The notes under the pieces: model-generated | The model's input: only the letters and a program-made list of their open reading frames with translations | What the model was told of the DNA's origin: nothing | The model's database searches: none | Part shown: one piece after another, positions 1-14,178 of the stretch | Numbering within the stretch: position 1 is the first letter of the stretch | Layout: each line of letters opens with the position of its first letter | IMG/VR virus record: IMGVR_UViG_3300032893_003198 | Coordinates: 1-21,867 of that record | DNA: 21,867 bases | Reading direction: 5' to 3' (one strand) | DNA from: a virus | Made by a program: the position numbers and the translations under genes

Positions 1-843
1 TCATGAAAGTTCCTTAACGATTGGACGCAATATTTCTATAAGCTCATTAAATTCATATTGCGGTACTTTGTTTGAATAAAGCGCATCTCCTTCATACTCT
101 GTGCGAAGACACTCAATGAGTTTTTCTCCAGGACGAGTTGGAATTTTACATGTTTTATAGGAATTAATTCCCAATAGGGCGGCTATAGCTCCAGATATTT
201 GAGTAATGACCGCCCCTTTCATTGCAGGAATTTTTAATCCGCCATTATGTTGAGATAGCCCATTTGCCACCACAAAATGTGCGGCATCTTCAATGGTTAT
301 CCAAAATCGAGACATATGTTCGTCTGTTATATAGACGCAATTTTTTTCTCTAAGCGTTTTTACAAACTTTTCAACAACACTGCCGCGGCTTGCTAGTACA
401 TTTCCGTAACGGCAGACAACATTGTTGGGGTTTCGAAGCACAAGTCTTTCAGCAATGGCTTTAGACATCCCATAAACATTGATGGGATAGGCTGCTTTAT
501 CGGTTGAAGAAAAAACTACTCTATTGACCCCATTTACTCGTTGGGCATGAAGAACATTCATGGTGCCCTGTAGATTTGTAGAAATAGATTCTTCTGGGTT
601 TTCTTCAAGCTTGTCGACATGCTTTAGGGCTGCGAAATGAAAGATGAGGTCAGCCCCTCTTGATGCTTCTATTAGGCGCTTACTGTCGCGAACATCGCCT
701 AAATAAAGAGGCAGAGAGATCTCAAATTTGGACTGCTTTAATTCATCTCTCGAATAGCCCATCAAATAATACGGCTCTTCGCTTAAGATCTTAGCTACCG
801 CGGTTCCTAATGTGCCTGTAATTCCAGTTATGAGAATTTTCAT
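1..843 (-). CDS. pseB: PseB-like UDP-GlcNAc 4,6-dehydratase (SDR family)
   Basis: Extended short-chain dehydrogenase acting on a UDP-sugar in the cytoplasm. In the PseB family it converts UDP-GlcNAc to the 4-keto-6-deoxy sugar, the first step to pseudaminic acid. Seen: NAD-binding TGITGTLG (6-13), YSRDELKQS (30-38), which is a PseB hallmark, HFAALKHVD (69-77), catalytic D115-K116 with Y124 and K128 in the STDKAxxPxNxYGxxK pattern, RYGNVLASRGSVV (145-157), MSRFWIT (177-183) and RPGEKL (237-242). At 280 residues it is shorter than typical bacterial PseB (about 330), but all core motifs are present. It starts at ATG in an ATGA overlap with the membrane-protein gene and has no clear Shine-Dalgarno site, so it is probably translationally coupled. 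The stop codon is the first base triplet of the window, so later pathway genes could lie just outside. FnlA/CapD-type dehydratases are the main alternative for the exact product. Confidence 0.85.
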   Translation of the reverse strand: MKILITGITGTLGTAVAKILSEEPYYLMGYSRDELKQSKFEISLPLYLGDVRDSKRLIEASRGADLIFHFAALKHVDKLEENPEESISTNLQGTMNVLHAQRVNGVNRVVFSSTDKAAYPINVYGMSKAIAERLVLRNPNNVVCRYGNVLASRGSVVEKFVKTLREKNCVYITDEHMSRFWITIEDAAHFVVANGLSQHNGGLKIPAMKGAVITQISGAIAALLGINSYKTCKIPTRPGEKLIECLRTEYEGDALYSNKVPQYEFNELIEILRPIVKELS

Positions 844-1079
844 TTTTGAGTTTTTGGTGATCTTAATAGCTGCATGTCAGGATCAATCCTATGCACTGCT
901 ACTAAGGCTCCGCCCGTATTGAGGTCAGTAAAAAAGTCTCTAAGCTCCTGTGATTGACCGCGCTTTTTTTTCGCCTGATTTAGGAGAAAAAATAGATAGG
1001 CATTGACGGCGAGAGAAACTAAAAAGAGAAGAATAAAAATAGCAAAAACAGTGGCTACGACTAGCAAAGTAAGTTGCAT
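840..1079 (-). CDS. Small single-pass membrane protein, unknown function
   Basis: 79 residues. Residues 3-34 are almost wholly hydrophobic (a long single helix or a tight hairpin). A basic stretch KKKRG (37-41) follows, then a soluble tail with DFFTDLNTGG (48-57) and a charged end. The positive charge after the helix predicts N-out, C-in topology. It lies between the divergent endolysin gene and pseB, overlapping pseB by 4 bases (ATGA). Its place next to the endolysin makes a holin or other lysis-helper role possible, but the long conserved-looking soluble tail is not typical of a simple holin. A membrane anchor working with the PseB-like enzyme is equally possible. I do not recognise the family. 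No good ribosome-binding site precedes the ATG. Confidence 0.65.
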   Translation of the reverse strand: MQLTLLVVATVFAIFILLFLVSLAVNAYLFFLLNQAKKKRGQSQELRDFFTDLNTGGALVAVHRIDPDMQLLRSPKTQK

Positions 1080-1140
1080 TGCGTTACAAAGTATTGATTT
1101 GATTATGGTAGCTTAATTCGCATCTTTTGTACCGAAACTT
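1080..1140. promoter_or_regulatory. Divergent intergenic region between endolysin and membrane-protein genes
   Basis: This 61-base AT-rich gap separates the only plus-strand gene from the minus-strand pair membrane protein/pseB. Promoters for one or both directions would be expected here. A CATAAT -10-like hexamer is readable on the minus strand at 1102-1107, but I find no convincing -35 box at the right distance, and no clear promoter on the plus strand. Neither start codon has a good Shine-Dalgarno sequence. The intergenic repeat found elsewhere in the window is absent. The promoter role is inferred from gene orientation only. Confidence 0.3.
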
Positions 1141-1494
1141 ATGACACTTTTAGAAAAACAGCAGGTTTTCGCCTCTCTTCTCCCACGTCTTATAAATAAA
1201 GCTAGAGAGCTAGGCTATGAAGTAACTATTGGCGAGGCATATAGGCCACAAGCCATGGCAGATCTCGATGCGAAAGAAGGAAAAGGCATAAAATGTAGCC
1301 TTCATGGCGAGCGATTAGCGATTGATCTGAATCTTTTTAAAGATGGAGAATATCTTACTGATACTAGGGCGTATCAGGCATTAGGAATGTATTGGGAATC
1401 TTTATCCCATAGCGAATATGAAACTAGATGGGGTGGATTTTTTGCAAAGCCAGATGGGGACCACTTCAGCATTATGCATGAAGGAAAAGCTTAA
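1141..1494 (+). CDS. Endolysin, M15 (VanY/L-Ala-D-Glu type) zinc peptidase
   Basis: A single-domain peptidoglycan peptidase of the M15 family, which cuts the peptide stems of the host wall at lysis. Seen: SLHGERLAID (53-62), giving zinc ligands H55 and D62; WGGFF (97-101); and PDGDHF (104-109), giving probable catalytic acid D105 and third zinc ligand H108. The 55/62/105/108 spacing matches T5-type endolysin (H66, D73, D130, H133). At 117 residues it has the catalytic domain only, with no signal peptide and no binding domain, as in many phages of Gram-negative hosts, so it would need a holin. It is the only plus-strand gene of the window. Its stop and that of the facing tail-fibre gene share the palindrome TTAA. 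The ATG has no evident ribosome site, but the family N-terminus fits this start. Confidence 0.88.
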   Translation: MTLLEKQQVFASLLPRLINKARELGYEVTIGEAYRPQAMADLDAKEGKGIKCSLHGERLAIDLNLFKDGEYLTDTRAYQALGMYWESLSHSEYETRWGGFFAKPDGDHFSIMHEGKA

Positions 1495-2222
1495 TATCTG
1501 ACTCCAGCACATATGAATGAAAATTGGGTGTTTGCTCCCGCAATAGCACCCTCTAATGAACCGTTAGAAAACTCATAATAATAAACTGCGACAGTAAATC
1601 CAGCGGAGGTAGCGGTAGAAACGCCTGCCCATACCGTCGGATTAGGCATTGGACTTACCACAATTATTGGCGCAGCGTTAAAAGCAGTATTGAATGTGAC
1701 ATTATATCCTACGCCTGTATTTATCGACGATGTCCAACCTTCTCCTGCGATCATTGTGTTAGAAAGTCCAACGGTTCCCCTAACTATAGCAAGAGGTGTA
1801 GTTTGTGAAGATACGCTTGTTACTATTGGAAAAGATGTGCCAGAACTTGAATTATCTATTGTCACGGAGCTAACGGATTGAGCCGTAAGAGTGGCTAGAG
1901 AATTCAATTTCAAAGCTCCGCTCATTACAAAGCCATTAGTGTTTTTGGAAAATGTGTATCCGCCCCAGCTAAAGCTAGCGGTTCCATTAATATTTACTGT
2001 GTTAATGATCGTCCCACTGACGATCACTGTATTTGAACTCGATGCTCCTAAAACAACGTTTCCATTAGCCGTTAATGTTCCGCCTAAGGTCAGAGCTGAG
2101 ATATTGAAAGTTTTTGTTCCATCGGTCATTGCGGATATTAGATCAGTGAAGTTCTGATTTACTGCATTAGCATCCGCTTCCGATCCATTTGTGAATGTAT
2201 TGGTTACCGCTGGATTTGCCAT
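1491..2222 (-). CDS. Tail fibre/receptor-binding protein
   Basis: 243 residues, rich in S, T, G, N and A, with regular beta-type alternation. The N-terminus has NGSEADANAVNQNF (12-25), a pattern I recognise from the start of many phage fibre and appendage proteins. A Thr/Asn/Gly-rich shaft follows (about 40-150). The C-terminal part has YNVTFNTAFNAAPIIVV (172-188) and a final aromatic strand ending CAGVRY, like the beta-sandwich receptor-binding tips of fibre proteins (gp53-like or H-type lectin-like). It would sit on the tail and contact the host surface. It is the last structural gene on the minus strand. Its ATG follows the ejection protein's stop by one base, with GAGGAA as ribosome site. 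It converges on the endolysin gene with no spacer. Confidence 0.72.
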   Translation of the reverse strand: MANPAVTNTFTNGSEADANAVNQNFTDLISAMTDGTKTFNISALTLGGTLTANGNVVLGASSSNTVIVSGTIINTVNINGTASFSWGGYTFSKNTNGFVMSGALKLNSLATLTAQSVSSVTIDNSSSGTSFPIVTSVSSQTTPLAIVRGTVGLSNTMIAGEGWTSSINTGVGYNVTFNTAFNAAPIIVVSPMPNPTVWAGVSTATSAGFTVAVYYYEFSNGSLEGAIAGANTQFSFICAGVRY

Positions 2223-2223
2223 A

Positions 2224-3537
2224 TCATTCCTCTTTTTTACTAGTTGCTTTAGAAGCTAAGTATGCTGCCATTGCTCGGGAGATCGCATTGCCTGGCGCAG
2301 CCTCCAATAAATTTGCAAGACCATAGGCTCCAGTTCCAACCGTTGAAGCCACTCGCCCTTTGGTCAAAGCCCTTAAAATCGGCGTTGATGCAGCAGCTGC
2401 GGCTGCGGGATAATGCCCACTTGCAGCCAATGTCGCAGCGGCCGGCATTCCTACTGCCCATGATGTCATATCGCCAAGTCTTCCAATAAGACCCGCTCCA
2501 TGATCAGTTAAAGAAGCTGTCCTATTAGCCATTTTTCTAGCAGCTTCCGCATTGCCAAATTGAGTTTTCGCATCGAGAAAATCTTGCAATCTTTCCGCAT
2601 CCTGATTCTGAAGAGCGTCTTCTGATGCTTGCCTTAGGGCACCGCTAAATGCTCGATCCGCTTTTATCTTTGCCGCTGGTTCTGGAGCTCGATAATTAGT
2701 AGCCGCCTGTTCTGCTGTTTTTTCTGCCTCTATCTGAGATACAGGGACTGGTTCGTTTCCCAAATGTTCCATTAAAGAATCAAGTTTTTCCTGAATTGGT
2801 GCTGCTATTTTCTTTCCGGCATTTGTTTCTTGAAGGGGAGTAATTATATTTTCTTGAATATTTTGCGCGATATCGGCTGGATTAACCATTGCATCGCTTT
2901 TACTTATTATCTCGCCGATCTTCTGCCCCGCTTGGGCCTTGGTTTTTGCAAGATTTTGTGCAGTAGAAGCTACTTTTTGAAATGGTTGAATGTCTCCGTT
3001 CTCCAAAGCCTGTGTGGCTATTTCATCTAACTTTTCTGGACCCAATGCATTTGCGACTTGTGGAGTAGGCCTTAAATGTTGGACGGCCGATCCTATTCCA
3101 ACTTTTCGGAGCATATTGGAAAGCGCACTTCCTGTAACTTGACCTCCGAGATCGGCCATCGTGCCAGTCGCCGTATCTCCTAAAATATCGCCATAATCGC
3201 TATTAGGGACATTCTCATTCAAAAGGTATTTGCGCCCCAATCGTTCTATTTGTTTACCTGCGGCATATCCCGCTCCAGCGCCTAAGGCACTTCCAAAGCC
3301 CAACGTTTCAGGAGCAGCAGCTATTCCTCCTGCGATCGCACCGGCCGCTGGCGTTAATCCAAGAATCCAACTGCCCCATTTCTGAACTCCCTTTGCTGCT
3401 TTTTGAGCTAATGTATCGTCAGACGATTTTGTAAAAGGCTTATTTTCATCGAAAGCGGGCTTTCCTCCAGATGATGAAGCTGTAGTGGTAAAGGGCTGCG
3501 ATGGATCAAACTCTGGTTTTGCTTGAGCTTCAGCCAT
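2224..3537 (-). CDS. Probable DNA-ejection (internal virion) protein with glycine-zipper segments
   Basis: 437 residues. The N-terminus carries two copies of an FDxxxPFT motif (FDPSQPFT at 10-17 and FDENKPFT at 29-36) in a disordered Ser/Gly stretch. A hydrophobic Ala/Gly block with GxxxG-like repeats (about 57-100) could insert into a membrane. A long Ala/Gln/Glu-rich helical region (about 160-345) and a second Ala-rich hydrophobic stretch (about 355-430) follow. The protein ends in basic and acidic residues. This composition and its place among glutamine-rich genes before the fibre gene fit podovirus ejection proteins, which leave the capsid and form a channel through the cell envelope. No catalytic motif is seen; a transglycosylase domain is not evident. 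Its ATG overlaps the previous stop as TAATG. Confidence 0.6.
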   Translation of the reverse strand: MAEAQAKPEFDPSQPFTTTASSSGGKPAFDENKPFTKSSDDTLAQKAAKGVQKWGSWILGLTPAAGAIAGGIAAAPETLGFGSALGAGAGYAAGKQIERLGRKYLLNENVPNSDYGDILGDTATGTMADLGGQVTGSALSNMLRKVGIGSAVQHLRPTPQVANALGPEKLDEIATQALENGDIQPFQKVASTAQNLAKTKAQAGQKIGEIISKSDAMVNPADIAQNIQENIITPLQETNAGKKIAAPIQEKLDSLMEHLGNEPVPVSQIEAEKTAEQAATNYRAPEPAAKIKADRAFSGALRQASEDALQNQDAERLQDFLDAKTQFGNAEAARKMANRTASLTDHGAGLIGRLGDMTSWAVGMPAAATLAASGHYPAAAAAASTPILRALTKGRVASTVGTGAYGLANLLEAAPGNAISRAMAAYLASKATSKKEE

Positions 3538-4808
3538 TATTCATATCTTCCGGTGGATGAATTCCAGTTATAAATATGCCCATTTTGAATAACTGTCGGA
3601 CCATGCGGCGCCACGGAAGGACGCGCTGCCTCAGGAGCTCTTGATTCAGAAACGCTTCCGCCAGCGGGGTTATATGGTTTTTCGTCTTTTCCGAAACCAT
3701 AATTATCTAAAATTCCATAATAGGTATCTGGATCATTCTTTTTGAGCCATGTATGAGCACCTAGACGTCTTTGCTGAATTTGCTGCATCTGTTTCTGAGC
3801 TAAATCAGCCTCTCGATTGATGGTCCCCAAAGTATATTGAGTAAATTCCTGTTGTCCTTGGCCTGTGGGTTTACTTGTGAACCATTGTTTAAATTTATTT
3901 ACATCGCCCAATGCATCTCTTGGTACTAATGCCTGTACTCTCGAGTCACTGGCCATTGCCCCGGAACTCAGCATGTTAGCCATTCCAATTGCGAGTTCTT
4001 CATTTTCTTGTGGAATAAGGTTTCTGACCCCGCCAGCTTTATCGGTTGCTAGAACTTTTAATCGTTGTGCAGTTAAATACTTATTGCTTATTTGACCGAA
4101 ATTTCCGGCTCTTGATGCATCAGGATCTAAATCTTTCTGAAGCTTTGCCGCTTCTTCTGGAACTTTTAAGTCGATTTGTTGTCCTTGTCTGCTTTCGAAT
4201 CTATTGTTTTCGTTTTGTTGCCTTGCTCCAAACAATGCAAGCTGTTGATCACGAGTTGCTTGCCTATTTTTCTCTGCTGCCTGTGTCTCAAGAATAGCTT
4301 TCGCAAGAGGCGTAATATCATTAATCTCGTTTGCCTGTTTGATAGCCGCCGCACTCATTCCGGGGCGAGCTTCTCTAGCTGGTTGAGCAGGAATGATGGT
4401 TTGTGGCTGATCGGGATTATAAGGAATCCCACTTTGCCCCTTAGCTTGCGCCTGTTGAAATAGGTTTGGTTGTACTTGTTCGGGTGTTGCTTCTTGAGCC
4501 GTCACACCGCCAGTTCTATCAATCGCTGCTTTGTAATCATCATCGTTCATCAATCCCTGTTGATGAAGAAGGCTATAATGGGCTAATTGACCTTGCTCGG
4601 CAGCTTTAGATACATCGCTGTTTGGATCGTTTAATTGCTGGGTTGATGCGATCTGTGATTGAAGCGCGCTATTTTTTAATCCTTCATTTGCAATCTGAGT
4701 TTTGAGCAAATCATTTTTAGTTTGCTGAGCGGCTAGGGTTCCAATGGCATCAAGAGCATTTGTTATTGCTCCTATTGTCGCTCCTCTATAACCTGGAAGT
4801 GAAACCAT
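3537..4808 (-). CDS. Glutamine-rich internal virion/ejection protein
   Basis: 423 residues, strongly Gln/Ala-rich, with long predicted helices. A coiled-coil-like stretch at about 20-70 precedes a Pro/Gln-rich linker (about 105-150), further helices with NRQATRDQQ-type repeats (about 170-235), a more globular middle (about 240-330) and a Pro/Ser-rich C-terminus ending NWNSSTGRYE. No enzyme motif is visible. Placement between small ejection-type genes and the glycine-zipper protein suggests a second ejection protein, as podoviruses usually have two or three. The start is supported by an AAGGAG site five bases before the ATG, inside the 9-base gap after the upstream stop. The family is not recognised by name. 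Confidence 0.6.
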   Translation of the reverse strand: MVSLPGYRGATIGAITNALDAIGTLAAQQTKNDLLKTQIANEGLKNSALQSQIASTQQLNDPNSDVSKAAEQGQLAHYSLLHQQGLMNDDDYKAAIDRTGGVTAQEATPEQVQPNLFQQAQAKGQSGIPYNPDQPQTIIPAQPAREARPGMSAAAIKQANEINDITPLAKAILETQAAEKNRQATRDQQLALFGARQQNENNRFESRQGQQIDLKVPEEAAKLQKDLDPDASRAGNFGQISNKYLTAQRLKVLATDKAGGVRNLIPQENEELAIGMANMLSSGAMASDSRVQALVPRDALGDVNKFKQWFTSKPTGQGQQEFTQYTLGTINREADLAQKQMQQIQQRRLGAHTWLKKNDPDTYYGILDNYGFGKDEKPYNPAGGSVSESRAPEAARPSVAPHGPTVIQNGHIYNWNSSTGRYE

Positions 4809-4817
4809 TTTATCTCC

Positions 4818-5090
4818 TTATTCGTCAGCAAGACCCGTTACTGAATTTGAGTTTTCATCAGTGGAAACATCTCCGGCGCGCTCAGGAGTCCCTGTTTTAA
4901 ATGCCGGCACATCTGGACCTACTTTATGAATCGCTCTTAAGATATGTTCTCCAGCTTTCATTCTTATATGAAATGGGATAGGGGTATTAGGATCATTCAC
5001 CGCCTTCCAACCCTGATGAAGAACATAATCAGGATCTGAGCGTTTATGGGCTAATGCTCTTTCAATAGCTTGCTGTGAATTTTCATCCAT
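4818..5090 (-). CDS. Hypothetical protein in ejection-protein cluster
   Basis: 90 residues. The first two thirds look folded and mainly helical (AIERALAHKRSDPDYVLHQG at 8-27, then HIRMKAGEHILRAIHKVG at 41-58). The last 25 residues are acidic and Ser/Thr/Asn-rich, probably disordered. No motif is recognised. The start is well supported: AAGGA lies a few bases before the ATG, and the stop of the 35-codon gene upstream is only three bases away. Its position within the ejection-protein cluster suggests a small virion protein or a chaperone for one, but that is inference from context. Confidence 0.6.
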   Translation of the reverse strand: MDENSQQAIERALAHKRSDPDYVLHQGWKAVNDPNTPIPFHIRMKAGEHILRAIHKVGPDVPAFKTGTPERAGDVSTDENSNSVTGLADE

Positions 5091-5093
5091 AAT

Positions 5094-5201
5094 TCATCCT
5101 TGCGTATAATCTTTAATCGAAGTATTTACAGCGCCACCATTTAATCTTCTTGCAATAGCTTGAAGCTTGGCATTTGGATCAATTGTCTCTTTAGGCTTCA
5201 T
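5094..5201 (-). CDS. Small ORF (35 aa) with an LxAIxRRxNGG motif
   Basis: A 35-codon frame beginning MKPKETIDPNAKLQAIARR and ending IKDYTQG. Its ATG overlaps the stop of the 86-residue gene as ATGA, and its stop lies three bases before the ATG of the next gene, so it fills an otherwise empty 100-base gap with coupled starts and stops. Residues 13-23 (LQAIARRLNGG) closely match residues 48-58 of the gene just upstream (LAAIGRRINGG). Function is unknown. The fit of spacing, coupling and shared motif is why I call it a gene despite its size. Confidence 0.5.
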   Translation of the reverse strand: MKPKETIDPNAKLQAIARRLNGGAVNTSIKDYTQG

Positions 5202-5458
5202 AAAGCAGCAATAATATTAGCTATGCTAAGAGCATTGCTTCCCATTTGATTTTTATTTTGGGAAGAATTGCCCTGTCCCTGTCCGCCTCCATTTATTCTT
5301 CTCCCAATTGCCGCAAGAGACCCGGCGCCAGTGGATCCACTGCCCCCTCCAGCCAATTGACCTAATACATCCGCGATATTTGATGGGTCCATTCCGGCAT
5401 TAGTGGGCGTATTGCCTAATGGGCCAAAAAATGGACCAAGTATGTTTGTCATAGCCAT
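5198..5458 (-). CDS. Gly/Asn-rich small virion-type protein
   Basis: 86 residues. A hydrophobic Gly/Pro-rich start (MTNILGPFFGPLG, 3-15) is followed by a segment DPSNIADVLGQLAGGG (24-39), a Gly/Ser linker, LAAIGRRINGG (48-58), a Gln/Asn/Gly-rich stretch (59-75) and a hydrophobic end SIANIIAAL. It resembles the neighbouring 192-residue protein in style and probably acts with it. No family is recognised. It is downstream of that gene by 11 bases and coupled to the 35-codon gene by ATGA. An internal virion role is inferred from context. Confidence 0.5.
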   Translation of the reverse strand: MAMTNILGPFFGPLGNTPTNAGMDPSNIADVLGQLAGGGSGSTGAGSLAAIGRRINGGGQGQGNSSQNKNQMGSNALSIANIIAAL

Positions 5459-5469
5459 ATTTTTTTACC

Positions 5470-6048
5470 TCAGAAAGAGATCCCTGTTCCCAAGAATCCT
5501 CCGCCACCAAGCAATCCTCCACTATGAGCGGCCTGAAATTGCGCCATCGCTTGTTGAAAGGCATCATTGGCCTGATTTTGCGCCATGCCAAATTGCTGAT
5601 TTTGTAATCCAGCTAGACCCTCTTGCGCACCAACGCCAGCCGAATAGGCCTGAAGTGCCATTTGATTATTGGCTTGATCGGCCTGCAATTGCGCTTGTGC
5701 TTGTTGAGTATTTAAATTTGAAAGATCAGATGATTCTTGTTTTGCTGTCTGATTTTCTAGATTCTCTGTTTGTTTTGCTTGGGCACCATTTCCAGGCCCA
5801 CCGCCAGCTGCTGCAAATTGACGATTAAGAGCCATTTGGGCCTGATTTTGATTCTGGCTATATTGCGTCTTCACATTATTTATCATGGGCTGATAAATAC
5901 CCGCGGCATTAAGCGGGGTAATCGTCGGCATATTGTTTACCATGCCAGCTAGCCCCGAAAGTGAAGGCATATTGGGCATCGATGTTGGGATCGTAGGAGG
6001 AGCATTGCCTCCTCCTAGAAAACTATTTAGAAAGCTACCTAGACTCAT
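5470..6048 (-). CDS. Glutamine/alanine-rich internal virion protein
   Basis: 192 residues. It has a short hydrophobic start (SLGSFLNSFLGGG, 2-14), a Pro/Met/Asn-rich linker (15-50), and then a long helical region dominated by Gln, Asn and Ala (about 52-175) with QNQNQAQMALNRQF (65-78). The C-terminus is Gly-rich and hydrophobic (GGLLGGGGFLGTGISF). This layout, with small hydrophobic ends around a Q-rich helical core, is common in podovirus ejection or needle-associated proteins. There is no catalytic motif. The ATG overlaps the stop of the nozzle gene as ATGA, which fixes the start. The exact virion location cannot be told from sequence. Confidence 0.55.
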   Translation of the reverse strand: MSLGSFLNSFLGGGNAPPTIPTSMPNMPSLSGLAGMVNNMPTITPLNAAGIYQPMINNVKTQYSQNQNQAQMALNRQFAAAGGGPGNGAQAKQTENLENQTAKQESSDLSNLNTQQAQAQLQADQANNQMALQAYSAGVGAQEGLAGLQNQQFGMAQNQANDAFQQAMAQFQAAHSGGLLGGGGFLGTGISF

Positions 6049-8126
6049 CGATACCCCCTAATGTTGTACAAAAATTGCATATGATGAACTTTAAAGCTTT
6101 GATTCACCACGTTTTGATTACTAAATTGGAATTGTACTCGTTTGCCAGAAAGGCCACCTAAATAGACTCTAAAATCTTGCTGAGCGTTACCGGTGCCCCA
6201 ATCTCCACTACCCCAAATGAGTCCACCCGCGCCACTTCCCCATACCGATCCGCCCGATGATAAATCGATTTGAGTAGCTAAGCCTGCGCCAAACTGAGAA
6301 TCTGTTTTATATGCTAAGTTCATATAAAAATTGCCTGGCAGGTCCACCAATATATTCACATAACGAAAATCTTTCGTAAGTTGCGTATCTTCTACAAATC
6401 CAGGGAATTCTTTGGTCCAAAAATATGAATTAATAGCGGTGCCAGCATCATTATAGGTCCCAGTATCCCCAAGCTGGTAGACATATCCATCAGTAAGCGA
6501 TGACGCACCATAGAGCTTTCCACCATAGATACAAAACTGAGCGACATTTAAGCCAGTGCCGCTCCATGGAACCCATGATGCTAATTGCGATTTTTTGACA
6601 TTTGAAAGCGAATAGTCCCACACATAAATCGTATTGTTATATGTGGCACTCCTACCTAACGGCAGGGAAATGAAGGCCCTATTTTTATAAGAGATTCCCG
6701 AAATATTTCCAAGGTAAGCGTTTGGGACTAAAAACATATCCGGCTCAATGACTTGGCTTTGTAAAAGACTTCCAGCGCTGGTCATTGGCTGAATGGTAAT
6801 AGTCGGATCAATAGTTTGCCCGCTTAACGCGCCAAAACCAGCGAATACTTCATTTTGAACTGCTGGATGAAGGAGCATATCCTGCCCTCTTACATCACAG
6901 CGGATTGCACAATAAGGGGATTTTGAGCCATATGGAGAATTGGTAATGATCTGTCTCCAGTTTGAGGGGTCAGCCACCGTGGCGCTTCCACTTACACTTG
7001 GACTTGTATCCACCGAAATGGAAGTATTGGGCGAGCCCATATAATTTATGACTGTGCTTCTCTCGCAAAAAATAACTATATGGTTATCGTATGGAGCAAA
7101 TCCTTTTACGAGATCACCCGTATTATCGCCCACTCTAAAAAAATTAGTGGACGGGAAAGTAAATGGCCCCTGACCCGGATCGGAAAACCAAACGTAGCTT
7201 GGATTATTGACGTCATTACAAAAAAGCATTCCTTGGCAGTAGGCAATAGCATTGTAATTCGGCGGCACTCCATTATCTGTTGGAGCGGGCTGTCCTAATT
7301 TCGTATCATTTACCGTATCCACAAAGGTTGTGGTTGAAACATTTCCTATAGCCCCCACATACCAAAATGCTCCGGAGACTCCGCCGCTATTAATGTTTAA
7401 AGTTCGATAAATATATCTATCGAAATATCCCATCGAAGCGGTGCTTGCTGTTGGTACGCTCAAAATTGCTGCATATCCGCTGGCAGCGCCAACGGTGAAA
7501 GAGACTGGGGGAGAATAATTACTTTCAACAAGATGGGTATTTACTAATGTATAAACATAAACATAATTTCCGCTTGTCGCCAGAGACCCTGTTGTTCCCG
7601 TGGCTACCGTTGGAGCATTAGCGGGAGGATAAACTCCATGCTTTGTGAAATAGGTGCCATCCCATTTATAAGGTGATTCCTGCCCATCACACATGAAAAT
7701 ATAATTTTCAGCTAGAGCTGCACCTATTCGATGGCCTGGAGAAAAAACACTTTGTGCGGAGGGCACGGTAATAAAAGTAGTGGTAGCTAAGGTATAAAAA
7801 CTTCCACCCAGCCATGCGCACATAGTTTCTGAAACTCCATCCTGAGCTCGTCTAGAATACAAACCATCGAATGCATATCCGGCGGAAGTTACAGTTCCCC
7901 CTGATGCGACACTTCCACCGCACGGCGTAGTGTTTAATTGAATAGAGCCTTGCCTAGTTGTTACTGCTCCATTTACAAATTCTACATTTAGACAATCTGG
8001 GGATTCGTTATCTGGAATGAGAGAAGGTTCAAATTTATTATCCTTTCCACCATCAAAAACAATAAGTTCTTGATCTGGGTAGAGCCTTTTGTATGGCTGA
8101 TTTGGTGGATTTGAACTTGGAGGCAT
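6045..8126 (-). CDS. Tail nozzle/stabilisation protein (beta-propeller type)
   Basis: 693 residues, rich in aromatic, Gly, Ser and Thr residues in alternating beta-strand patterns. Near the N-terminus the stretch PDNESPDCLNVEFVNGAVTT (38-57) matches the opening of podovirus tail-hub/stabilisation proteins, where the protein lists a reference to the genes it covers with 'NV.F..G.V..R'. Repeats such as NYIFMCDGQESPYKWDG and YCQGMLFCNDVNNPSYVWFSDPG look like propeller blades. This fits the nozzle of T7 gp12/P22 gp10-type tails. It follows the adaptor gene with stop and start codon directly adjacent (TAAATG), the classical adaptor-nozzle order. The exact family assignment is by pattern, not by search. 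Confidence 0.7.
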   Translation of the reverse strand: MPPSSNPPNQPYKRLYPDQELIVFDGGKDNKFEPSLIPDNESPDCLNVEFVNGAVTTRQGSIQLNTTPCGGSVASGGTVTSAGYAFDGLYSRRAQDGVSETMCAWLGGSFYTLATTTFITVPSAQSVFSPGHRIGAALAENYIFMCDGQESPYKWDGTYFTKHGVYPPANAPTVATGTTGSLATSGNYVYVYTLVNTHLVESNYSPPVSFTVGAASGYAAILSVPTASTASMGYFDRYIYRTLNINSGGVSGAFWYVGAIGNVSTTTFVDTVNDTKLGQPAPTDNGVPPNYNAIAYCQGMLFCNDVNNPSYVWFSDPGQGPFTFPSTNFFRVGDNTGDLVKGFAPYDNHIVIFCERSTVINYMGSPNTSISVDTSPSVSGSATVADPSNWRQIITNSPYGSKSPYCAIRCDVRGQDMLLHPAVQNEVFAGFGALSGQTIDPTITIQPMTSAGSLLQSQVIEPDMFLVPNAYLGNISGISYKNRAFISLPLGRSATYNNTIYVWDYSLSNVKKSQLASWVPWSGTGLNVAQFCIYGGKLYGASSLTDGYVYQLGDTGTYNDAGTAINSYFWTKEFPGFVEDTQLTKDFRYVNILVDLPGNFYMNLAYKTDSQFGAGLATQIDLSSGGSVWGSGAGGLIWGSGDWGTGNAQQDFRVYLGGLSGKRVQFQFSNQNVVNQSFKVHHMQFLYNIRGYR

Positions 8127-8774
8127 TTATGCTTCTCCAACGATTGTGACTGGAAGCACGTCTTCCGATTGCACAGTCGCAAAAGAATCTGTTCTTTTAA
8201 TTCTATTTTTGTATGCTATTGCGTCTTTAACATGTTCTGCCCAAGCAGCTTTATGAAATTCCATATTTCCCAAATCTTTATCTTTCTCAAACATGCGCAT
8301 TAACAAATAATCGACCATATCGAAGTGAAATAGCGGGGGAATTTCCAATGGATCACTTGTGGCTGTTACTTGTTGAGCATCATTATAGGAGAATATCTCT
8401 ATGGTGTAGACCATGTCGGGAATTGGACGCAGAGATATACAATAATTGAAATCAGTATAGTAAATAGGCCAACCCATTGTCGTTGCGCTTTGGTTAGACA
8501 ACGTAATGGCGTCATCATATCTATGAGTAATCCTTTTTATTTTCCTGCCGTTTATGGTGACGCGCTTTAATGCAATCGTAGTAGTTGGATATAAATATTG
8601 CTGCTGCCCGGCGACGGTAGGTGTAGTATAAAGTCGCTCAATTAGCCAAGCTTTTTTTGCAAGTTCATGTGATGCCTGCCAAATCCAATTGTACATGAGC
8701 GTATCGGTGAAAAACGTATCCCCATTAGCATTATAGAGATCCCTTGCTGCACTAATTATATCGGCGATAAGCAT
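8127..8774 (-). CDS. Head-to-tail adaptor protein (gp4/gp11-like)
   Basis: 215 residues. The N-terminal helix ADIISAARDLYNANGDTFFT (4-23), then YNWIWQASHELAKKAWLIER (28-47), a beta-rich middle (52-140) with Pro-rich strands, and a C-terminal helix MVDYLLMRMFEKDKDLG (152-168) follow the usual layout of short-tailed phage adaptors. These form the ring under the portal to which the nozzle binds. The middle part MGWPIYYTDFNYCISLRPIPD (from about 99) is typical of the family. The gene sits directly before the nozzle gene, as in many podoviruses. The start overlaps the stop of the double-LamG gene as TAATG. Confidence 0.75.
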   Translation of the reverse strand: MLIADIISAARDLYNANGDTFFTDTLMYNWIWQASHELAKKAWLIERLYTTPTVAGQQQYLYPTTTIALKRVTINGRKIKRITHRYDDAITLSNQSATTMGWPIYYTDFNYCISLRPIPDMVYTIEIFSYNDAQQVTATSDPLEIPPLFHFDMVDYLLMRMFEKDKDLGNMEFHKAAWAEHVKDAIAYKNRIKRTDSFATVQSEDVLPVTIVGEA

Positions 8775-10615
8775 TAGCTATCTCCTGGAATGCTGATTGA
8801 AAAACTATCTGGTGTGGTCCCATACATCGTAAATGTATTTCCACCTATGGAATCATATAAATATTGGTAGGTGTCGTTTGGACCGCCGAGAAACCAATAA
8901 TTGATCAGATTCGCTGCTGTAGAGGCATTCCTTTGATCAAAAAGAACTCCCTCATTATAAAGCTCGGTAACCTGTGCTTGATTTAAGGCGATATTATAAA
9001 TTGCTAGATCACACAGTAAGCCTTGGAAAACATCTATTGGGCCCACCTGCCCTGTTCCGGGAGGGGGTTCTGTCAATACGACGCCGTCGGTACCAAGTCT
9101 TAAGGTATATACTGAATATGAATTTTTAACCTGAGTATAAGCTGGATAACCAGTTGCTTGATTTACTTCATTTGGATATGTCGTTACTAATTGATTTACT
9201 CCATTTTTATAAAGACCATGTCCATTAATCATGAAAGTATTTGGGCTCATTGGATTAACTGGCGCACCATTTCCGAGCTTACCGTCATAAGTCCATACGC
9301 AATGGATCCATTCATTATTGTAATATTGAGTAGTATCGTCGGTACCGATAGCTCCGCCGATCATGTAAGAATGCCAGGTAGTATTGTCTGAAATAACAAA
9401 TGAGAGCGTATTACATTGAGCGGTCCAATATAGTGGGCTTACTCTTCCGCTTGCGACATCATCGAAATTCGGTGGCGCATTAGTTCCACTTGCTTGAAAC
9501 ATTCCAAAATTAAAAGACATGCCGCTTTGGCCTGTGAATGGGACTTCATTGCCATTTGCTAAGACAACTCGATCGCCAGTAGTAGGAGAAATTTCCCCAG
9601 TCGCTGCTGGCGGCATTTTTACCCATACCACTATGGAGAATGCAGACGTCTGAAAATTGTTATTATATTTTGCGATCCCGTAAGAGCTTTCTCCATTTAG
9701 TGAAAGAGAACGTCTGCCAGTAGGCGATGCTATTCCTCCAGGAACATCACTAACAAATGCAACTGAATGACCGGTTCCTTCGTAGTTTCCGACTGAATCA
9801 AAGACACTAGATGTAAGCTGGCTATCATTTGGTCCAACCATCGGGAACCAATGAGTGGGAGGTGTCGAATAATTGGCTAAATTCGCAAGCGGAACTCCCA
9901 CATTCCAGATATTTGCGGCATCAGCGGCAGTTAAAGTTGTGCCATACCATAGAGCAACTTGCGAAATCATCCCATTGAATGCGATATCTCCGTTCACTGC
10001 GTTAGGGGTACATATTCTTAAGTTATTTGTACTTGAAGAATGTCCGGAATTTAGAGTTTGAGGATGAGTCCCAACTTGAGTGGCAAGTGCGCTATCTACA
10101 TAACATAGCCAATTTGTGGCCACACCACTTGTGTCAGTAGTAACGGTAATATTGTGCCAAAGCCCATCATTTACTGCGATATTCCAATCAGCGGAGATAA
10201 ACCCACCAGGTTGCCCTCCTGAATCTACGAATACAAAATCAACTGTGCCATTTAGCCCATCCGTCTCTGTATTGGCCATTGAAAGTCGCCATCCGCCAGT
10301 CGTACTTGTTGGATTATAAAAGGTTCCGATCCATGTTGGAGTAGTTGTATCGCCTATAACAGAACATTTGAGCCAAATTGATACTGAAAACGCTTCCGTA
10401 TAATCAACATTGAAGGTTTGACCGAAATCAATATAGGAATTACTTCCATCAAAACTTACAGACTGATTATAGACATATGGAGGAGGTCCGGGCGGAGGAG
10501 GCGGCGGAATAATCGGCGGAGTCGGTTGAATGGGATCTACATCAACCCATAATGGCTCAGATATAGACGGATCTGGATCGACATCTGTCCAAGGATATGG
10601 GTTGTATAGAGCCAT
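8774..10615 (-). CDS. Virion protein with two LamG/concanavalin-like domains
   Basis: 613 residues. A short N-terminal part with two W-[TV]-D-V-D-P motifs (positions 9 and 23) leads into a proline-rich hinge (29-46). Two LamG-type jellyroll domains follow, at about 50-290 and 300-605. Each opens with SFDGSNSYIDF- or SLNGESSYGIAKY-like strands, has FSVSIWLK or FSIVVWVK, and a LWHNITV- or WIHCVWTYDG-type strand, and each closes with a WF..GPND segment. LamG domains commonly bind glycans. Placement between the capsid and adaptor genes suggests a capsid- or neck-attached appendage that binds carbohydrates. It shares clear sequence signatures with the 269-residue LamG protein two genes upstream. 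No signal peptide is present, so it is not a host-secreted protein. Confidence 0.7.
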   Translation of the reverse strand: MALYNPYPWTDVDPDPSISEPLWVDVDPIQPTPPIIPPPPPPGPPPYVYNQSVSFDGSNSYIDFGQTFNVDYTEAFSVSIWLKCSVIGDTTTPTWIGTFYNPTSTTGGWRLSMANTETDGLNGTVDFVFVDSGGQPGGFISADWNIAVNDGLWHNITVTTDTSGVATNWLCYVDSALATQVGTHPQTLNSGHSSSTNNLRICTPNAVNGDIAFNGMISQVALWYGTTLTAADAANIWNVGVPLANLANYSTPPTHWFPMVGPNDSQLTSSVFDSVGNYEGTGHSVAFVSDVPGGIASPTGRRSLSLNGESSYGIAKYNNNFQTSAFSIVVWVKMPPAATGEISPTTGDRVVLANGNEVPFTGQSGMSFNFGMFQASGTNAPPNFDDVASGRVSPLYWTAQCNTLSFVISDNTTWHSYMIGGAIGTDDTTQYYNNEWIHCVWTYDGKLGNGAPVNPMSPNTFMINGHGLYKNGVNQLVTTYPNEVNQATGYPAYTQVKNSYSVYTLRLGTDGVVLTEPPPGTGQVGPIDVFQGLLCDLAIYNIALNQAQVTELYNEGVLFDQRNASTAANLINYWFLGGPNDTYQYLYDSIGGNTFTMYGTTPDSFSISIPGDS

Positions 10616-10616
10616 T

Positions 10617-11048
10617 TCACGCCGCTTTCTTTTTTCTATTCAAAGCTTCTTCAACCTCTGGCATAACGAGTTTTTCTGCATTTTGATGACGGACCTTCGT
10701 ATGAGCTTCTAATTCTTCAGCACTGGGAGAAATGTGCGTGCAGTCTTTTGCCATGCATCGGAATATTGGCGCATCGTTTGGTTTTGTCGCTTCAGTTGTC
10801 TCAGGAATTAAACGGATCATTTTATAGAATTTGGAGCTTTCTTCCATTTTGCCTGACATATCGCAGGGGACCGGTCGATATTGTTTTGCATATTCATTGG
10901 CTTCAAAAACATCCATGAGTTTTTTTGAACCATCTTTATTGAGCCAGAATGACTTTGCTCCTATTTCCATCTGTTCACCTTTGAAGATCTCTCGAATGGG
11001 GTGAACATTGTCGTTAAACACATATACTTTTGAACTTGCATAAGACAT
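10617..11048 (-). CDS. Phage protein with a C-terminal C2H2 zinc finger
   Basis: 143 residues from the ATG at 11048. I prefer this to a TTG 15 bases upstream because TTGGAG then acts as ribosome site, and because the ATG stands 19 bases from the repeat exactly as in the Q/P-rich gene. The N-terminal half (YVFNDNVHPIREIFKGEQM, 9-27, then EIGAKSFWL) resembles a family of small phage virion-associated proteins. The C-terminal part contains C98-x4-C103-x12-H116-x4-H121 with the conserved Leu before the first His, a textbook C2H2 finger, followed by a Lys-rich end. It may bind zinc for stability, nucleic acid or another virion protein. The gene lies between two LamG genes. Confidence 0.65.
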   Translation of the reverse strand: MSYASSKVYVFNDNVHPIREIFKGEQMEIGAKSFWLNKDGSKKLMDVFEANEYAKQYRPVPCDMSGKMEESSKFYKMIRLIPETTEATKPNDAPIFRCMAKDCTHISPSAEELEAHTKVRHQNAEKLVMPEVEEALNRKKKAA

Positions 11049-11064
11049 TGAATAATTCTCCAAT

Positions 11065-11086
11065 TAGATTGTTTTGATTCTTGTAA
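11065..11086 (-). repeat. Intergenic repeat copy 2 (TTACAAGAA...CAATCTA)
   Basis: One of four copies of a TTACARGAA-N5-7-CAAT element, always on the coding (minus) strand in a gap between genes. Here it follows the LamG gene's TAG by 12 bases and lies 19 bases before the C2H2-finger ATG. It is identical to copy 3 at most positions, including six spacer bases between GAA and CAAT. It may be a promoter, RNA-processing site or module-boundary sequence. Confidence 0.6.
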
Positions 11087-11098
11087 GTTTAAGAAAAG

Positions 11099-11908
11099 CT
11101 ATGGAACATCAGTCGCAAAAGCACCACTACCCTGCACCGAAAAATTTACTCCATTAATATAATCAACGATAGTACTCGTCGTATCGTTTGGTCCAACCGC
11201 GCGCCACCAATTCGTAGGAGGAGTGCCCAATGTTGCATAATTTTGAAGTGGAGTATTATAAAGCGTCGATATTTGAGTGCTTGATAATTTAGTGCCATTC
11301 CAAAAAGCCAAATTAGATAATCTTCCAGCCGTATATCCATCCGAACTGGCTTCATTGGTATTATCTATTCCACAAACTAATATATTAGTGGGCGCACCAG
11401 TTGTAGTAATTGCGGAATGTGCGACTGTTGAAACTGCTACCGAGCTTCCATTGATATAAAACACAGTTCCAGAACCATTGCTTTGATAAGTTCCATCATC
11501 AGTAACGCACAAATGATTCCAACTGCCATCGATGATTGTATTATTGTTCGCAGTAAGTACGTCATATAATCTAGTGCTCGATCCGCTTGTACTCGTCATT
11601 AAAAATTCAAGCCTAGGATTTCCAGGTCCATTATCGATATTTACCCTGAAGGAAAAGCCTCCAGTATAAAACGTAGAATTATTATTGCACATGAACCCAA
11701 AATATCCGCCAGAACTGCACTTAAACCATGCCGTAACGCTTATTGCAGTTCCGCCAGCCGGCGCCCCGGCCCAGTTTGAAGCAGTTGCAAGATAGGTGCT
11801 GCTACCATCAAATACAAAACTTTGCGTACTATTTGAATAGGCAGCAGCACCAGATCCTGAATCTTGAGACCAGGTACGTTGGGCCGTGTATGAATCTGAC
11901 CATGACAT
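11099..11908 (-). CDS. LamG-domain virion protein
   Basis: 269 residues from the ATG at 11908, which overlaps the upstream stop as TGATG; a TTG one codon earlier is less likely. It has one LamG/concanavalin-like jellyroll: SFVFDGSSTYLA (31-42), ISVTAWFKCSS (56-66), WNHLCVTDDGTY (130-141), VFYINGSSVAV and LSNLAFWNGTKLS (198-210), closing with TPPTNWWRAVGPND. The closing segment matches TPPTHWFPMVGPND of the first domain of the 613-residue protein, so the two genes are paralogues. LamG domains bind glycans, so a carbohydrate-binding appendage on the capsid or neck is likely. It has no signal sequence. It is followed by the intergenic repeat and the C2H2-finger gene. Confidence 0.68.
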   Translation of the reverse strand: MSWSDSYTAQRTWSQDSGSGAAAYSNSTQSFVFDGSSTYLATASNWAGAPAGGTAISVTAWFKCSSGGYFGFMCNNNSTFYTGGFSFRVNIDNGPGNPRLEFLMTSTSGSSTRLYDVLTANNNTIIDGSWNHLCVTDDGTYQSNGSGTVFYINGSSVAVSTVAHSAITTTGAPTNILVCGIDNTNEASSDGYTAGRLSNLAFWNGTKLSSTQISTLYNTPLQNYATLGTPPTNWWRAVGPNDTTSTIVDYINGVNFSVQGSGAFATDVP

Positions 11909-12282
11909 CAATCAGTCCCGCAGATCACCTGGAATGTAATTGGACCAGCCCCACCGGTGCATGTATTTCCAAGTTGGATTTTCATATATGGAAATGCATT
12001 GGGAATAGGCACAACACAGCTAGAGACTGCATTTCCTATGAAAAAGGTCAGTGGCCCACTTGTTGCCGTATTAGCGCAAGGAAACATGACTTGATAGAAG
12101 GTCACATTATCCGCGGAACCTTGCAGATATACGTTACAAGTAGAGGTGCTGACACTGCCACTAAGAGCTGGAATTCCAAGCCATACATATGGCCAGGATC
12201 TCTGACCTAGATTGATAGAGCCGGTAATAGAGCCACCCGTTGTAATCGTTGCGGCAAAATACCGGGATGAACCTTCTGGCAT
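11908..12282 (-). CDS. Beta-rich virion protein, unknown
   Basis: 124 residues. It is rich in Ser, Thr, Gly and aliphatic residues in strand-length alternations, with INLGQRSWPYVWLGIPALSG (23-42), VYLQGSADNVTFYQV (51-65) and PYMKIQLGNTCTGG (98-111). The SADNVTFYQV segment resembles small beta-sandwich proteins of phage heads and appendages ('..gs.Dg.tw..v'). It probably forms a jellyroll or Ig-like decoration, but I do not recognise a named family. It starts one base after the preceding stop with GGAG in the end of that gene, and overlaps the LamG gene by one base. Context suggests a capsid or neck accessory. Confidence 0.6.
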   Translation of the reverse strand: MPEGSSRYFAATITTGGSITGSINLGQRSWPYVWLGIPALSGSVSTSTCNVYLQGSADNVTFYQVMFPCANTATSGPLTFFIGNAVSSCVVPIPNAFPYMKIQLGNTCTGGAGPITFQVICGTD

Positions 12283-12283
12283 A

Positions 12284-12556
12284 TTAGCTCCTTCCAGTGG
12301 AGACTAAATAGAAAACATCCCCAGATGCTACTCCGTTAAGATTTACGCTTCCAACCGTTGTGGAGTTGGTGCCATTTAGATTCACTTTCACAAGAGGAGA
12401 CGCTGTCGCCATGCTGATTGGGCTCAATTCCGATGAAAAAATATATCCCAATCCTGTCGCGATCGTTCCACTTGCTGAATCTGCGGTAACGCTCTGACAG
12501 ATGACTCTCGTATTTCCATAAACTGACTTCCAAGCCGTACTAATCGTATAAGCCAT
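12284..12556 (-). CDS. Small beta-rich virion protein, unknown
   Basis: 90 residues with repeated short strands (VICQSVTADSASGTIATGLG at 18-37, LVKVNLNGTNSTTVGSVNLN at 55-74) and ending DVFYLVSTGRS. No enzymatic motif, signal or membrane segment is seen. The pattern fits a small capsid or tail decoration protein. It follows the DUF115 gene by 28 bases and is preceded by the best ribosome site of the window (AAGGAGGA, about 10 bases before ATG), so it may be made in large amounts. This fits a virion component rather than an enzyme. Confidence 0.58.
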   Translation of the reverse strand: MAYTISTAWKSVYGNTRVICQSVTADSASGTIATGLGYIFSSELSPISMATASPLVKVNLNGTNSTTVGSVNLNGVASGDVFYLVSTGRS

Positions 12557-12584
12557 ACTTCAGTCCTCCTTGTACTTCTGTTGT

Positions 12585-13616
12585 TTAGTATAAAATCTTG
12601 TTCGTAAATACTTCTGGATTTAAACAGGCATCCTTAATGCCTTCATTCATGTTGTACATCATAAGAAAATCATCGACTGGCATCTGCTTAATGCTCATGA
12701 GATTGCCTTCCGGATAGGCTCCAAGCATTCCACCCTCTGTGCAATTTATATAAAGGCCAGGAACCGTAAGTGTGACGTATTCTGTAAAGTTTTTGAAACC
12801 GAAATACGAATTCCAGGTTAGCACTTTATTGCCATAAACATCGACCCCGCGCATAACGGTTCCCATATTTGCATCGTATTTGGAATTCCAGGAATGGAAT
12901 TTAATCCCGTTTCCCTGATCATATCCAAAAGAGAAATCAGCCCCCATAAACGCCACTGGATTTGAGCCAAAGATGGCTTTAGCAATATAAAGGCAGCCGC
13001 CCAGGACGTTTCCGCCATTAGAAACGAACATATGATACGGTTCGCATTCTGTTACCGTCTGAATGTATTTTTGATCTGGCACTGGAGCATTAAAGAGATA
13101 GACTTCCCCTTGCCATTTATTGAAAAGCTCAATGGGTGAACCAATAAATGCGATAAGTTTTTTGTTTTTGGTTCGATCCCAATATTCTTGCTCTGTTTTG
13201 CTCCCGCCTTCTGATACTTCTTCTAAAACCACTTTTCCCGCATCCAAAGAAACGTAGTAATCAATATCGACATCTCTATCTTCGAAGAAATGGAAGTTAT
13301 GGAGCGCAGAGATGGCTAAAATTCCATCCCTGTCTTTAATTTTGGCTCCATTGTAACCAAGACTTGGGCCAGAACCGATGACGAAAGCGGGTTTGTGTTT
13401 ATTGATATTGAAAAGCTTTCCTACGGAATGATCTTTAAAGCTTTTGAATTTAGCATGACATGCTTTTACGTTTTCACACCAGGTTTTAAGCCATGAATCG
13501 ATGGTAATTCTGTCTGAAGCACAGGCATTTCCATAAAGCTGCTTAGGAGTTGCTGGCGGATTCTCAATATAATTTTGATAGCTGAGAACCATTTCTACTT
13601 TTCGAGGTGAACCCAT
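12585..13616 (-). CDS. DUF115/Maf-like protein (MptE or nonulosonate-transferase family)
   Basis: 343 residues. Seen: PAFVIGSGPSL (76-86), the nucleotide-binding start of DUF115; ILAISALHNFHFF (99-111); IDYYVSLDAG (118-127); SNGGNVLGGCLYIAKAIFG (199-217); VAFMGADFSF (221-230); and CTEGGMLGAYPEGNL (292-306). These follow in order the motifs of Maf/DUF115 proteins (GSV..A...A..LG..PI..VG.D, then TEGG..I.G). In bacteria Maf proteins transfer pseudaminic or legionaminic acid to flagellin, while archaeal MptE is a pterin pyrophosphokinase. A phage gene here, just after the capsid genes and the terminator and in one window with a PseB-like gene, suggests glycosylation of a virion or host protein. 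ATG start; AAGGAAGGG lies rather far upstream (14 bases). Which of the two DUF115 activities it has is unproven. Confidence 0.78.
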   Translation of the reverse strand: MGSPRKVEMVLSYQNYIENPPATPKQLYGNACASDRITIDSWLKTWCENVKACHAKFKSFKDHSVGKLFNINKHKPAFVIGSGPSLGYNGAKIKDRDGILAISALHNFHFFEDRDVDIDYYVSLDAGKVVLEEVSEGGSKTEQEYWDRTKNKKLIAFIGSPIELFNKWQGEVYLFNAPVPDQKYIQTVTECEPYHMFVSNGGNVLGGCLYIAKAIFGSNPVAFMGADFSFGYDQGNGIKFHSWNSKYDANMGTVMRGVDVYGNKVLTWNSYFGFKNFTEYVTLTVPGLYINCTEGGMLGAYPEGNLMSIKQMPVDDFLMMYNMNEGIKDACLNPEVFTNKILY

Positions 13617-13704: not shown

Positions 13705-14178
13705 TCACGAACCAAACGTCCGGATATATGCATACGCGACACCGGCAGAACCAGTGGCTTGTATAACGATTCCAAACGCAGGAGCGCTAAGGGCACCAGT
13801 AGCTTCAATCACTTTGCCACTGGAAGTAGCATTAATGACTGCGCCCTGTGCTAATGCGGTGCTTGCTTGACCGTTAATAACGGAGCAGAACCCCTTAGTC
13901 ATTAGCCAGCCATAGTACGCCGTGCCGATATTTGTGTTGGCAGCAACACCGACTGGAATATCATAACTGGCCACTGCTGACACAGTTACGCTAAACCCGG
14001 TATTGGCGCTCATCACAGCCAGCATATTCGTAGATATGGACTGTACGCCTGCATTATAGACATAGACATATTCTGCACCGTTATAGATGCGAACTGTGCC
14101 TAGATCTACGCTGTTTGACAGGGTTACGTTTGATACGCTTTCGACTTCGACTGGAAGTCCTTGATAGTTTAATGACAT
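13705..14178 (-). CDS. Probable capsid decoration/head-stabilising protein
   Basis: 157 residues, acid-poor and beta-rich. Strands such as VEVESVSNVTLSNSVDLGTV (10-29), RIYNGAEYVYVYNAG (30-44) and FSVTVSAVASYDIPVG (62-77) are followed by a C-terminal part, GSAGVAYAYIRTFGS, with many Ala and Gly residues. Small proteins of this type encoded directly after the major capsid gene usually coat or stabilise the head. No enzyme motif is seen. It follows the capsid gene by 15 bases with GAAAGGAAG as ribosome site, and the strong terminator follows, as expected for two very highly expressed genes. The family is not recognised by name. Confidence 0.62.
   Translation of the reverse strand: MSLNYQGLPVEVESVSNVTLSNSVDLGTVRIYNGAEYVYVYNAGVQSISTNMLAVMSANTGFSVTVSAVASYDIPVGVAANTNIGTAYYGWLMTKGFCSVINGQASTALAQGAVINATSSGKVIEATGALSAPAFGIVIQATGSAGVAYAYIRTFGS

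Follow-up and report, generated by a model that had tools for sequence, protein, structure and literature searches.

A Maf-like glycosyltransferase gene in the capsid operon of an uncultured podovirus-like lineage with predicted nonulosonic acid genes: candidates for capsid glycosylation

The window analysed here is the whole IMG/VR record IMGVR_UViG_3300032893_003198, a linear virus fragment of 21,867 bp in which nearly all predicted genes are carried by the minus strand. Judged by sequence, these minus-strand genes constitute a podovirus-type late operon with terminase large subunit, portal, major head protein, adaptor-like and tail/internal virion proteins. Two further genes within this structural operon are the subject of the present report, namely a PseB/FlaA1-like gene (1..843, minus strand) for a putative uridine diphosphate (UDP)-N-acetylhexosamine 4,6-dehydratase of 280 aa, and a DUF115/Maf-like gene (12585..13616, minus strand) for a glycosyltransferase of 343 aa which is proposed to transfer a nonulosonic acid. 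Both had been named in an earlier note made from the letters of the sequence, and both are real, as they match Polysacc_synt_2 (PF02719, E 9.6e-62) and MptE-like/DUF115 (PF01973, E 8.4e-15, 55.4 bits against a curated cut-off of 34.6), respectively.

The DUF115 gene occupies a fixed slot among the capsid genes. In the window it follows the gene of the major capsid protein (14194..15117, minus strand; phrog_9953 major head protein, E 1.6e-56) and that of p157 (13705..14178, minus strand), which sits between the two, and the gene of the small protein p90b (12284..12556, minus strand) lies directly 3′ of it. Profile scans of IMG/VR yielded a set of 189 relatives, 80 of which were kept; DUF115 is represented by 81 sequences forming 67 clusters at 90% identity. 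Among loci with enough upstream sequence, 66 of 67 have the major capsid gene no more than 1.2 kb away on the upstream side of DUF115, and in 69 of 77 relatives p90b follows DUF115 within 300 bp. The dN/dS ratio (nonsynonymous to synonymous substitution) of DUF115 amounts to 0.02–0.09 for close pairs with unsaturated synonymous change, indicating purifying selection. All 16 related records tested contain PF01973 and all eight of those longer than 20 kb contain PF02719 as well, thus the pairing of the PseB-like and DUF115 genes is not a matter of chance.

The AlphaFold2 model of p157 (pLDDT 78.6) matches the head fibre base of phi29 (6qyy, Foldseek 7.5e-5), a capsid chain of Haloferax tailed virus 1 (HFTV1; 8qsy, Z 13.9) and the small capsid chains of FCWL1, Pam3, T1, XM1 and TW1 (Z 9.6–11.9). 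From this model p157 is predicted to adopt a capsid-decoration-type fold and is regarded as the candidate acceptor of the sugar, with the major capsid protein as the alternative candidate. Relatives in GenBank are distant, the major capsid protein matching 15 records at 21–31% identity, including Mx8, BUCT555 and Manatee Spring viruses. In the Mx8-like podoviruses (Mx8, BUCT555, ctMlz233) the major capsid protein is related (about 30% identity) and its gene is followed by that of another small protein, and neither DUF115, NeuB nor the sugar cassette described below was found there. Profile similarity of p157 to Mx8 p49 is weak, and the comparison of p157 with the slot proteins of BUCT555 and ctMlz233 gave no convincing match. 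The proportion of Ser plus Thr in the protein after the major capsid protein is 20% versus 18% in sister phages, a difference which is significant, small and confounded by ancestry and to which no weight is given.

A model of the DUF115 protein was built with AlphaFold2 from 17 phage sequences (pLDDT 89.1, pTM 0.88). Its top match among solved structures is the Magnetospirillum Maf 5mu5 (Foldseek 1.4e-8; VIA-align Z 22.2, 241 residues, 2.9 Å), followed by the pterin kinase MptE (8sd5, Z 14.8) and, in third place, by eukaryotic and Campylobacter sialyltransferases (Z 8–9), several of which have a cytidine monophosphate (CMP)-sugar or CMP bound. The sequence profile likewise matches 5mu5 with E 7e-4 versus 0.54 for MptE. 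As Maf outscores MptE in fold and in profile, the match at these two levels is not to MptE only, and the modelled protein resembles a glycosyltransferase of the Maf type more closely than a pterin kinase, in keeping with the Maf-like label given to the gene in the earlier note. The alignment spans only residues 238–514 of 5mu5, corresponding to the Maf central domain, the fold of which is present in the phage protein. In Maf proteins this domain is accompanied by an N-terminal Rossmann-like and a C-terminal flagellin-related domain (PMC11339370). Both lie outside the 5mu5 alignment and the three-domain architecture is lacking, therefore the protein is termed Maf-like and not a Maf. Maf enzymes move CMP-activated nonulosonic acids onto Ser/Thr residues and also accept N-acetylneuraminic acid (Neu5Ac) and 3-deoxy-D-manno-octulosonic acid (Kdo) (PMC11339370). 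With the Maf flagellin glycosyltransferases of Magnetospirillum (5mu5) and Clostridium botulinum (CbMaf) the phage protein shares PF01973, the fold and the expected CMP-nonulosonic acid donor, whereas it is single-domain and encoded beside capsid genes rather than flagellin. No match to DUF115 was obtained by tblastn of 50,697 GenBank phage records. A profile search of genome contigs returned a single match, a 3.5-kb contig in an Actinomycetota metagenome-assembled genome, on which the C-terminal half of a protein related to DUF115 is encoded (51% identity); this is probably a mis-binned phage contig and a weak hint to the host at most.

The PseB-like protein matches 4j2o with 168 bits and FlaA1 (2gn4) with 154 bits in the PDB. 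It retains the TGxxGxxG motif as well as the catalytic Thr-Asp-Lys, in the form of S-T-D-K (STDK), and Tyr-x3-Lys (YGMSK). In solved relatives the catalytic Tyr position is occupied by Tyr in FlaA1/PseB and by Met in the FnlA-type enzyme, and since the window enzyme carries the Tyr it looks PseB-type. On one related contig (G011; 5033-5989 of locus L044) a PF02719 enzyme is encoded away from the cassette, and its catalytic Tyr is replaced by Met as in the FnlA type. The window record terminates exactly at the pseB stop codon. Its first bases are TCATGA, of which TCAT at 1..4 represents the ATG start codon (minus strand) of the following gene, overlapping the pseB stop by 4 bp; the same overlap is present in the relatives L036, L038, L041 and L047. 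Read in this way, the PseB-like gene opens a cassette whose remainder is cut off by the record end. It is adjoined by the gene of the 79-aa protein p79 (840..1079, minus strand), homologues of which directly precede pseB in most fully read relatives, and the structural-region protein p243 (1491..2222, minus strand), with same-place homologues in relatives, closes the tail operon ahead of the cassette.

The relatives provide the part that would lie left of position 1, where the earlier note had advised looking for sugar genes. Directly after the tail operon their cassette runs PseB, a short Gfo/Idh protein, CTP_transf_3, a class-III aminotransferase and a GNAT protein with PseH as its best match. 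In G016, a close relative with 86% identity in the capsid protein, PseB is followed by CTP_transf_3 without the Gfo/Idh gene, then by the aminotransferase and GNAT. CTP_transf_3 is found in 20 of 26 records and is nearer to KdsB models and to PDB entry 6oew than to PseF. A profile search of genome contigs with the aminotransferase found no relative. The class-III aminotransferase of one contig (G004; 3936-5699 of L040) has a low-complexity, charged insertion of about 150 residues between conserved blocks, which may be an artefact or an insertion element.

A further sugar gene encodes a NeuB/PseI-type synthase. It is present in 27 of 39 related records and sited upstream of the terminase gene, that is, beyond the right end of this record, in which the terminase large subunit is encoded at 20014..21339 (minus strand; phrog_2, E 1.4e-34). 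The best PDB match of the NeuB profile is pseudaminic acid synthase (191 bits), and the SDH and EKH motifs and the Lys are invariant. NeuB is also carried by G017, a close relative with a capsid protein of 88% identity; that of contig G011 is short, with an open frame of 257 aa. PseB-like protein, CTP_transf_3, class-III aminotransferase and NeuB occur together in sixteen records, counting G043 with a CTP_transf_3 match below the cut-off.

As a control, a scan with Mx8-like capsid proteins was performed and 80 sister contigs were fetched with 10-kb flanks. Within these flanks no gene for DUF115, NeuB, aminotransferase, cytidylyltransferase or PseB was found in any of the 80. Among loci that extend 6 kb or more beyond the capsid gene on its upstream side, NeuB is found in 32 of 37 of the DUF115 lineage versus 0 of 43 of the sister lineage. 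The control speaks to NeuB and DUF115, since the downstream cassette is too distant from the capsid gene for comparison. Among the 50,697 GenBank phage records NeuB occurs in two, of which one is a Moritella viscosa contig and the other a T4-like marine virus. In the latter (Marine virus AG-345-L05) a single stretch holds the genes of a DegT aminotransferase, NeuB, epimerases and several glycosyltransferases, which is a different surface-glycan cluster. In a search seeded with NeuB, 35 of 80 viral loci also hold DUF115 within the fetched stretch. Two viral contigs, L276 and L277, have a single open frame (5593-7689) matching cytidylyltransferase and class-III aminotransferase, followed by PseB and NeuB and without a DUF115 match; by its sequence this is another arrangement of the same sugar cluster.

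Similar gene pairings exist outside phages. On a plasmid of Pseudosulfitobacter pseudonitzschiae (NZ_CP022416.1) CTP_transf_3 is joined to a class-III aminotransferase with PseB, GNAT and PseI nearby; in this pseB-pseC-pseG-pseI cluster, the 5′ end of the gene annotated as class-III aminotransferase shows a match to the phage cytidylyltransferase. It differs from the phage set in being bacterial, in having one fused protein together with its own PseC and PseG, and in its location amid polysaccharide genes. A Halorussus plasmid carries Gfo/Idh, cytidylyltransferase and class-III aminotransferase in the phage order. Owing to these two parallels and to L276/L277, the phage set resembles nonulosonic acid clusters in its gene pairing.

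Taken together, it is rather probable that this lineage of small, podovirus-like phages (about 40 kb) produces a nonulosonic-acid-like sugar in CMP-activated form, or assists its host in producing one, and places this sugar on the exterior of its own capsid. From the gene content, gene order, folds and conservation observed, we infer substrates, a product, an order of steps and an acceptor as follows. The PseB-like dehydratase would convert UDP-N-acetylglucosamine into a 4-keto-6-deoxy sugar, to which the class-III aminotransferase would add an amino group and which the PseH-like GNAT protein would then acylate. UDP would be released by a host enzyme or by some other enzyme, NeuB would condense the sugar with phosphoenolpyruvate, and the CTP_transf_3 enzyme would form the CMP-sugar. 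As a product of the capsid operon, the DUF115 protein would transfer the sugar from CMP to Ser/Thr of p157 or of the major capsid protein in the cytoplasm, before or during assembly. The pathway reading is much strengthened by the presence of the missing genes in relatives and by the absence of NeuB and DUF115 from the sister phages. The fixed capsid slot and the decoration-protein neighbour point to capsid attachment as the likeliest use of the sugar. The narrower statement that this uncultured lineage combines a nearly complete nonulosonic acid pathway of its own with a stripped-down Maf in the capsid operon, and sialylates its own decoration protein, is conceivable to a degree somewhat short of an even chance.

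Several observations weigh against this interpretation. Of the proposed system, the window itself encodes no more than the dehydratase, the transferase and the acceptor candidates, the remaining pathway being read from relatives. With the PseBCHGIF and LegBCHGIF pathways the phage set shares PseB-like, PseH-like, NeuB/PseI-like and cytidylyltransferase members, yet these score below the equivalog cut-offs where tested. For the PseB-like protein the top NCBIfam model is PseB (TIGR03589) with 190.3 bits against a cut-off of 407.75, hence "PseB-like" is the furthest permissible name; the GNAT protein reaches 71.2 bits of the 93.1 set for PseH, its top NCBIfam match, and NeuB remains under its cut-offs as well. 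Again unlike these pathways, the set includes a class-III, HemL-like aminotransferase for the DegT-type PseC and an extra Gfo/Idh protein, which is short and without an assigned pathway step. The PseG hydrolase (TIGR03590) is absent from 26 of 26 records at E 0.01, and no DegT-type PseC was seen in the cassettes, whole records not having been searched for DegT. As PseG and a DegT-type PseC were not found in these searches and PseB, NeuB and GNAT score low, pseudaminic acid, the sugar named in the earlier note, is not upheld as the exact product. Furthermore, the flagellin-binding domains of Maf are absent from the phage DUF115 protein. One long record (G036), which looks rearranged, has DUF115 and none of the sugar genes, and another (G030) has DUF115 with a divergent aminotransferase as the only sugar gene; such phages may draw on a CMP-sugar of the host, or the records may be faulty. 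Finally, co-occurrence inside one lineage partly reflects common descent.

With the same enzymes, the DUF115 protein could instead put the sugar on a host surface protein or flagellin, thereby altering the cell surface in the course of infection and excluding rival phages. The earlier note had placed this option beside glycosylation of the virion. It agrees with the action of bacterial Maf proteins, which modify flagellin (PMC11339370), and with the site of the cassette outside the capsid genes. Contrary to it, most relatives keep the transferase gene in a fixed place between those of the capsid protein and p90b, the enzyme is single-domain without the N- and C-terminal Maf domains, and no GT2 glycosyltransferase is found in 26 records, flippases and ligases not having been specifically searched for. 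The own capsid is thus favoured by the fixed slot and by the decoration fold of p157, and modification of the host is kept as an unlikely alternative that still deserves attention.

Alternatively, the product may be another CMP-activated keto sugar, for instance a Kdo-like one or an amino-octulosonic acid, or cassette and NeuB may serve two products. The resemblance of CTP_transf_3 to Kdo cytidylyltransferases, the acceptance of Kdo by Maf and the failure to find PseG are in line with this, as is the Halorussus plasmid, where the shared gene order is kept with no adjacent NeuB annotated. On the other hand, the best matches of NeuB and GNAT are pseudaminic acid synthase and PseH, respectively, and CTP_transf_3 and the class-III aminotransferase are fused within the complete Pse cluster of Pseudosulfitobacter, which makes a different sugar or two separate products rather improbable. 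An MptE-like pterin diphosphokinase with accidental neighbours in the capsid operon would share the fold of the DUF115 protein and is suggested by the name of the Pfam family; it is very improbable given the clearly better fold and profile scores of Maf, the sialyltransferase folds that come next and the capsid-operon synteny. Equally remote are accessory sugar genes without a virion role, for although large cyanophages commonly carry genes of nucleotide-sugar epimerases and the T4-like marine virus mentioned above carries its own cluster, the present lineage has a small genome in which the gene order recurs and the transferase is under strong purifying selection.

Glycosylation of the capsid by this lineage would belong to phage virion glycosylation, an already known phenomenon that has been reported for other phages, the mycobacteriophages; according to work cited in PMC11256854, glycans are present on the major capsid proteins of Che8 and Rita. 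In the lineage reported here a DUF115 candidate transferase is encoded together with genes for sugar synthesis. This small family appears to bring synthesis genes together with a transferase that shares its family with the bacterial enzyme of flagellin sialylation. If true, these phages would gain a way to mask or tune their own surface, and their DUF115 protein would provide a new transferase of compact size that puts nonulosonic acids on Ser/Thr. PMC8402811 was rejected as a precedent for pseudaminic acid on phage particles, as it reports host lipooligosaccharide in cystoviruses. No description of a phage NeuB/Maf system was found in the literature searched, subscription journals being mostly outside its coverage.

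Among the remaining genes of the operon, the portal gene is located at 16494-18485 (minus strand). Two Laminin_G_3 proteins with lectin fold are encoded just downstream of DUF115 in the head/tail operon (8774-10615 and 11099-11911, minus strand), as had been pointed out in the earlier note; their suggested part in the system is dropped from the hypothesis because none of 81 relatives has a homologue. A lone plus-strand gene amid the minus-strand genes (1141-1494) shows a weak match to Peptidase_M15_4 (D-Ala-D-Ala carboxypeptidase/endolysin-like) below the curated cut-off. p148 (10617-11063, minus strand) has a weak C2H2 zinc-ribbon match (20.1 bits against a cut-off of 30), and many relatives encode a homologue in this part of the operon.

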